Shown here: piece by piece, positions 37,613 to 37,978 of the stretch
Numbering within the stretch: position 1 is the first letter of the stretch
Layout of the letters: each line of letters opens with the position of its first letter
DNA from: Acidobacteriota bacterium
Lineage (GTDB): Bacteria; Acidobacteriota; Terriglobia; Acidiferrales; UBA7541
DNA length: 37,978 bases
Direction: 5' to 3'
NCBI GenBank assembly: GCA_003223215.1
Contig: QHYH01000133.1
Span: 1-37,978, forward strand
Position numbers and translations under genes: made by a program
The notes under the pieces: model-generated
Told to the model about the DNA's origin: nothing
Database searches by the model: none
The model's input: the letters and a program-made list of their open reading frames with translations, nothing else

Positions 37613-37819
37613 GAATGTCTCCGTTTTGTAGCGGGCGTGCGCTTACCGCCTTTTTGGACTGCTAAGGAAACCCCTACAATAGAGGATTTTGCGGGCGCAT
37701 TCAACGACAGAAGCGGCGTTGCCAGGGTGAATTCGTCCAGCCAGCTAACGGCCATAAAACTTAAACGGTTATAGATTTTCCTGGACATCTCTACCCTGCC
37801 CCTGTATCGTCGCACTTGA

Positions 37820-37978
37820 ATGCGTCCCGAGAGCAGTGACTCTGCTGCGCGTACGGAACTGCGCGAGATGGTGGTGCGGCTCGTTCATTCCAGCGAACAG
37901 CCTCGCTACCAGGAGCTCATGCGAGAGCATCACTACCTGGGCCATTTGCCCAAGATTGGAGAAACGCTTTGGTACGTG
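37820..37978 (+). CDS. N-terminal part of a DUF4338/DruA-like protein (cut by window edge)
   Basis: The ATG at 37820 opens a frame that runs off the right edge (53 codons), with an in-frame stop just before it. The visible part has a helix ELREMVVRLVHSS followed by RYQELMREHHYLGHLPKIG and ETLWYV. The phrase LMxEHHYLG...GETLWY is characteristic of the DUF4338 domain. That domain forms DruA of Druantia anti-phage systems and also the N-terminal part of some DDE-type transposases, so defence or mobile element cannot be settled here. A possible promoter upstream is TTGGAC (37654-37659) and TACAAT (37675-37680), spaced 15 bp. Confidence 0.6.
   Translation, partial: MRPESSDSAARTELREMVVRLVHSSEQPRYQELMREHHYLGHLPKIGETLWYV

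Follow-up and report, generated by a model that had tools for sequence, protein, structure and literature searches.

The window, meaning the whole stretch of 37,978 nucleotides that was analysed, is the entire contig C269 of a genome assembly of 8.8 Mb in 279 contigs. At its right edge lies an open frame of 53 codons, with an in-frame TGA just 5′ of its ATG, that runs up to the last base of the contig (Table 1). Searched alone, this frame matched no Pfam model at E 0.01 and none of the PADLOC or NCBIfam models at E 0.001. The sequence-only reading had reported the core of DUF4338 in the 53 residues from a motif alone, and the claim proved to be right. A frame on contig C115 of the same genome contains the identical 53 residues followed by 31 more and matches PF14236 at 31.2 bits (cut-off 27), and the longer sister copies on contigs C242 and C60 match it at 89 and 93 bits, respectively. 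The HMM comparison that had been proposed thus stays short of E 0.01 with the 53 residues and passes the cut-off with the extended sister frames, whose scores rule out a chance similarity to DUF4338. Moreover, the final 256 bp of the window are repeated, in part, on C115, C156, C64, C242 and C60, which gives seven matches in the genome when the window is included.

Table 1. Features at the right edge of the window (positions are those of the 37,978-nucleotide stretch).
Feature	Position	Strand	Description
Target-site duplication GCGGCGTTGC, left copy	37713..37722	.	Identical 10 bp follow the right end on C165 (L054/L178)
Left terminal inverted repeat CAGGGTGAATTCGTCCAGCC	37723..37742	+	Agrees with the right end on C165 at 14 of 20 positions
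Insertion sequence (~2.1 kb when complete), left 256 bp	37723..37978	+	Cut by the contig end; repeated on five other contigs
Start of ORF A, first 53 codons	37820..37978	+	Predicted beginning of a DruA (PF14236, Mom-like GNAT) domain; sister copies continue into an ISAs1-type transposase (N-terminal part)

The gene to the left of the insertion is 2,4-diaminopentanoate dehydrogenase-like. The first 18 bp of the left end, CAGGGTGRATTCGTCCAG (from 37723), occur exactly at five places in the genome, and a sixth match with two mismatches is found at C37:58464. The right end, AGAACAAATTTACCGTG, occurs nine times (eight exact and one with a mismatch), and its reversed control does not occur. Each of the five exact left ends is paired with one of these nine right ends by an identical 10-mer (C115 with C20, C64 with C242, C156 with C249, C60 with C37, and the window with C165), and the 40 other left-right pairings differ at 4 to 9 positions. 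For the window itself, the 10-mer shows no mismatch with the right flank on C165 and 5 to 9 mismatches with the eight other right flanks. The similarity of the two ends was not reached by chance, as none of 10,000 random pairs agreed at 14 or more of the 20 positions. In the assembly, no left end pairs with the right ends at the start of C60 and on C116, C148 and C42. On C148, the right end of the frameshift element lies ~100 bp before a second and different DruA-ISAs1 gene (L019/L179, 190-2369), which has no shift at the usual place.

The relatives of this genome provide both the occupied and the unoccupied state of such a site. Genome G016 carries an intact copy of 2,116 bp with a 10-bp duplication. 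In G008 (L185), the two flanks of the window's element lie ~125 bp apart without the element and thus represent an empty site, and G006 has the same flank order with a gap of ~440 bp. Both flanks are visible in two of the 11 relative loci around the C165 gene, the other nine having no window-side flank within the stretch that was read. We consider it very probable that an insertion sequence begins at the 3′ edge of the window and encodes an ISAs1-type DDE transposase, fused to a DruA domain and divided by a -1 frameshift, where the ORFs of the window's own copy, whose middle is missing from the assembly, are inferred from its sister copies. As a place, the locus is ordinary, being a contig broken by an insertion sequence. 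The suggestion that a defence or mobile island starts here did not hold as far as the sequence was read; what begins is a single insertion sequence of ~2.1 kb.

In the sister copies on C242 and C60, ORF A runs through the DruA domain into DDE_Tnp_1_assoc (PF13808) and then stops, and the remainder of the transposase follows in the -1 frame as ORF B. ORF B of C60 matches DDE_Tnp_1 (PF01609), and at E 0.01 that of C242 has no match in Pfam. The NCBIfam model for ISAs1 transposases, NF033564, gives 126.3 bits (cut-off 70) with ORF B of the G016 copy, and ORF A alone remains below this cut-off (42.8 bits for C242 and 47.7 bits for G016). The aspartate of LAIDGKT, which we take to be the first catalytic residue of the DDE set, is found in ORF A; ORF B supplies the acidic residues that come after it. 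Because the catalytic residues are divided in this manner, neither frame alone should be active. Among 18 hand-chosen loci, pN/pS was 0.30 for DruA compared with 0.33 and 0.34 for the transposase; these ratios indicate that the DruA domain is as constrained as the transposase and that both frames are under purifying selection.

The ends of ISAs1 elements begin with CAGGG, their target duplications measure 8-10 bp, and the family usually has a single transposase ORF without an extra domain, a habit that is not strictly defining. The element described here has the transposase model, the inverted ends and the short duplication of the family, and it departs from the single ORF without an extra domain. 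Because of the DruA fusion and the -1 junction, we regard it as a variant of ISAs1. A one-frame DruA-ISAs1 protein is encoded on a Candidatus Thiodictyon plasmid, where it is annotated merely as an ISAs1 family transposase.

To describe the junction, we used the best 80 of the 492 loci that a DruA-domain scan of the species-genome collection returned. Eleven of the 80 lack one visible half, and the 69 usable loci fall into 48 assemblies when grouped by accession prefix. The halves join by exactly -1 in 64 of the 69 loci and in 43 of the 48 assemblies, and the heptamer AAAAAAG occurs in the phase A_AAA_AAG at all 64 loci with a -1 junction. The zero-frame stop lies within five codons of the heptamer in 39 of the 43 assemblies, either directly after it (12) or five codons on (27). 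Three other conserved lysine codons of the gene mix AAA and AAG (11:44, 35:20 and 23:31), and the heptamer is therefore kept as DNA and not merely as Lys-Lys. The overlapping ORFs accordingly carry, in the required phase, the X XXY YYZ heptamer by which a programmed -1 frameshift is recognised. The departures from -1 are L081 (broken upstream), L092, L099, L117 and L132. At L117 (4001-5731), A8 replaces A7 and both halves lie in one frame across the junction.

Insertion sequence copies often degrade, and the two frames might be read as decay, the copies being pseudogenes without a programmed frameshift; the five loci of the 69 that are off the -1 junction and the copies that are broken elsewhere, such as L077, L085 and L094, are in keeping with this. 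However, an identical -1 shift at an identical heptamer in 43 of 48 assemblies and the purifying selection on both frames make decay a very improbable account. It is less far-fetched, and still improbable, that the shift arises by transcriptional slippage on the run of A instead of on the ribosome. Seven A are found at 64 of the 67 junction loci, and a search of the 50 bases 3′ of the heptamer, where a stimulatory structure is frequent in programmed frameshifting without being required, yielded no conserved hairpin (mean z -0.40, 48 sequences). Nevertheless, at L086 the run is six A long with an unchanged -1 junction, the phase of the heptamer is the one needed for tandem tRNA slippage, and the stop codon directly follows the heptamer in 12 of 43 assemblies. 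In addition, seven A is a short run for polymerase slippage. We therefore favour a programmed ribosomal frameshift.

The hosts of the best 80 of the 492 loci include Acidobacteria, Nitrospirae, many Proteobacteria, Desulfobacterota-type bacteria, a Chlorobiaceae MAG and one archaeal MAG contig. The last of these, a Methanococcoides contig (L140), has the same element and heptamer with an in-frame TGA in the DruA domain, and its archaeal label may be a binning error. A duplication of 9-10 bp outside CA[GC]GG ends was found at 35 of the 63 searchable related loci, 18 of which come from one Accumulibacter genome, and was not found at the other 28; none of 273 mismatched pairs showed one. The match at L082 in this search has poor ends (8/20). 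Twenty DruA-ISAs1 loci (L102-L116 and L118-L122) are present in Candidatus Accumulibacter sp. ACC003. Eighteen of them, L102 included, match L102 at no fewer than 1,876 of 1,908 positions and have a 9-10 bp duplication, whereas L108 and L122 diverge part way. The near-identical copies represent a recent burst. Within the phylum of the window, the element is sparse: its signature occurs in one of 396 sampled genomes, namely the window's own (the element-bearing G016 lies outside the sample), and DNA matches to the element occur in six of the 36 genomes of the genus, the window's own included.

The association of DruA with transposases extends to other kinds of element. PF14236 was found in 19 of the 101 genomes of the class sample, and 27 loci of this sample were read for ~1.5 kb on each side and sorted by eye (L168/L175 and L165/L176 are the same genes counted twice). 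The neighbours were clearly IS66 at nine loci, weakly IS66 at four and weakly ISAs1 at one; two loci were Tn5/IS4-type fusions, and 11 had no such neighbour. In the two fusions (L156, 1-2310, and L157, 1-2298), DruA precedes a transposase of the Tn5/IS4 type (PF14706 and PF02281) as its N-terminal extension. The window's own genome contains two IS66-type elements (L020, 1187-3826 on G000:C171, and L021 on G000:C214) in which a stand-alone DruA gene lies behind the transposase, and the element on C171 has an apparent 8-bp duplication, GGTTTAAT, identified by eye. Adjoining this element, at 3799-6999 of L020, are subtilase-like genes, again identified by eye, with GSGAVWGSGAVWG-type repeats.

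The sequence-only reading had left a choice between DruA of the Druantia defence system and a DUF4338-transposase fusion. The second part of this choice stood and the first did not, as inverted ends, a DDE domain and target duplications of 10 bp are all seen in the sister copies; the DDE domain and terminal inverted repeats, which it had named as the features to look for, were found as the DDE domain of the sister copies and the 14/20 match of the ends. The other feature, a DruE-type helicase to the right, did not appear in 12.3 kb of C165, where the longest frame measures 643 aa and none of the seven frames scanned matched a Druantia model. A reading of the gene as druA, with a Druantia anti-phage system opening a defence island, is suggested by the name of PF14236, which was taken from DruA and which the longer copies match, and by several PADLOC matches nearby: an ABC ATPase on C165 matches mad3/mad8, AriA and others, the window protein at 19938-21266 matches mad3/mad8, and two adjacent window proteins match LolE-type CARF-fusion models (E 2e-6 and 2e-8). 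However, these flanking matches include no Druantia model and look like common ATPase and permease domains, and the inverted ends, the target duplications and the fused DDE transposase of the sister copies also speak against Druantia. None of 20 proteins matched a Druantia model (seven of the 18 C165 frames of at least 200 aa, and 13 window proteins), and PADLOC at E 0.001 gave no match for five proteins, four of them with a complete or nearly complete DruA domain. At this locus, Druantia is ruled out by the target duplication shared with C165 and by the relative whose site is empty, and we give that reading practically no credence. The gene at 10603-11409 of L178 (C165), which matches mad3/mad8 in PADLOC and ABC_tran in Pfam, is probably not a defence gene because it is an ABC transporter ATPase in Pfam.

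A 2024 paper annotates DUF4338 as a GNAT domain (PMC10853773). For a closer comparison, we built a profile of the DruA domain (A2) from 55 of the 80 loci (best 80 of 492), leaving out near-duplicates and L140 with its in-frame TGA. The Pfam family Mom (PF25680) matches 33 of these 55 fused domains at E 0.01 (best E 2e-8), and besides DruA and Mom the only family reaching this threshold among the 55 domains is AEP-like, with one member. The individual DruA scores inspected against PF25680 were 25.9-26.5, just below its curated cut-off of 27.1. In HHalign, a profile of seven phage Mom sequences matched the 55 DruA domains at E 1.1e-6 (probability 91%) and a profile of six DruA sequences, two of them IS66-linked, at E 4.1e-7; the reversed controls gave E 0.24-0.25. 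RimI as a control against the DruA profile gave E 0.67, a weak control with its fragment of 105 residues. A profile of Mom is needed for this match, as one Mom sequence alone reached a probability of 9.7% against A2 (E 0.0033). The identity between Mom and DruA is ~15-19%, and the aligned motifs are N121-x-E-S124, D149 and G156-V-V-Y-Q-A-S-N163 in Mom and N110-x-x-S113, D143 and G149-T-V-Y-R-A-A-N156 in DruA. All 55 domains have S or T at residue 113 and all have N156, and 54 of the 55 have D143. The title of PDB entry 8bv8 describes an inactive mutant, S124A, of Mom, and the aligned serine of DruA is therefore a likely functional residue. A search by sequence with profile A2 for a solved DruA structure gave no match at E 1; for the AF2 model of the domain (pLDDT 86.6), VIA placed Mu Mom 8bv8 first (Z 15.1, rmsd 3.5, 162 residues; the next Z was 13.9), and in Foldseek Mom (E 1.5e-7) came second to the protein acetyltransferase RimI (E 7.3e-8). 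According to these profile and model comparisons, the DruA domain and phage Mu Mom, an enzyme that modifies adenine in DNA, appear to be homologues.

Enzymes of the Mom family are reported to transfer an acyl group from acyl-CoA to the N6 position of adenine (PMC7824862). Because of the Mu Mom fold and the active-site motifs, the most likely reading of DruA is an acyltransferase that targets DNA bases of the element or close to it, and we give this about an even chance. Somewhat less probable, and still a serious alternative, is that the domain is catalytically dead and contributes DNA binding or dimerisation to the transposase, or else that it acylates a protein. Its frequent position inside or beside a transposase would suit such a role; proteins are common substrates of GNAT folds, and the best fold matches include protein acetyltransferases, with RimI first by Foldseek. 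However, the motif residues (113, D143 and N156) are nearly fixed, and the relative identified by sequence is Mom and no other GNAT family, the RimI fragment having reached only E 0.67.

We propose the following course of events. In the sister copies, ORF A encodes DruA and the N-terminal part of the transposase with its first catalytic aspartate, and ORF B, in the -1 frame, the rest. A ribosome that slips back one base on A_AAA_AAG would produce the complete DruA-transposase, and ribosomes that do not slip would stop, mostly within five codons, and yield the shorter ORF A protein, which is probably the more abundant product. The complete protein would cut and join the imperfect inverted ends (CA[G/C]GG...) and leave the 10-bp duplication; the ends and duplications are observed, and the act itself is deduced from them. 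By modifying bases at the ends or the target, DruA might control cutting, timing or copy number. That its mark regulates transposition in this way, for example by marking ends or strands, is a guess, and a rather unlikely one. A counter-restriction role is also possible and is less natural for an insertion sequence that is already inside its host. On a wider view, DruA may be a Mom-type nucleobase-modifying module taken up independently by DDE transposons of the ISAs1, IS66 and Tn5/IS4 kinds, which would modify their own bases to control transposition, and DruA of Druantia may be a sister of this pool or drawn from it. We advance this idea tentatively and with more doubt than belief.

In the literature consulted, DruA is a component of an anti-phage system, with no chemistry described for it. 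The kinship with Mom suggests a DNA-base acyltransferase. The literature that we searched, mostly open-access, yielded neither a prior account of DruA-transposases or of a DruA-Mom kinship nor a description of widespread elements of the ISAs1 type that combine a Mom-like domain with an invariant signal for frameshifting. The presence of DruA inside or beside three kinds of transposase offers a compact system for experiments: an element of 2 kb that carries its own frameshift. Furthermore, an isolated match to PF14236 can be a transposon and not a defence gene, an error that the PADLOC models avoided.

Among known systems, DruA of Druantia has the Pfam domain PF14236 in common with the element; however, here the domain is joined to a transposase part, and a Druantia partner gene such as druE was not found beside it among the 20 proteins scanned. 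Phage Mu Mom (PF25680, 8bv8) shares the GNAT fold and the H-Y, N-x-x-S, S/T-x-x-D and G-x-x-Y-x-A-x-N motifs, but it is a free protein, whereas DruA, at ~15-19% identity, is fused to a transposase. The transposases of the IS1 and IS3 families belong to lineages other than the ISAs1 type and are not known to have a DruA domain. Like the present element, these families have a two-frame transposase joined by frameshifting (PMC3281130). A further known system is the ISAs1 family, with which the element shares the DDE core (NF033564, PF13808 and PF01609), the CAGGG ends and the 10-bp duplications, and from which it differs by the additional N-terminal DruA domain, a two-frame transposase with a -1 shift and a length of 1.9-2.1 kb.
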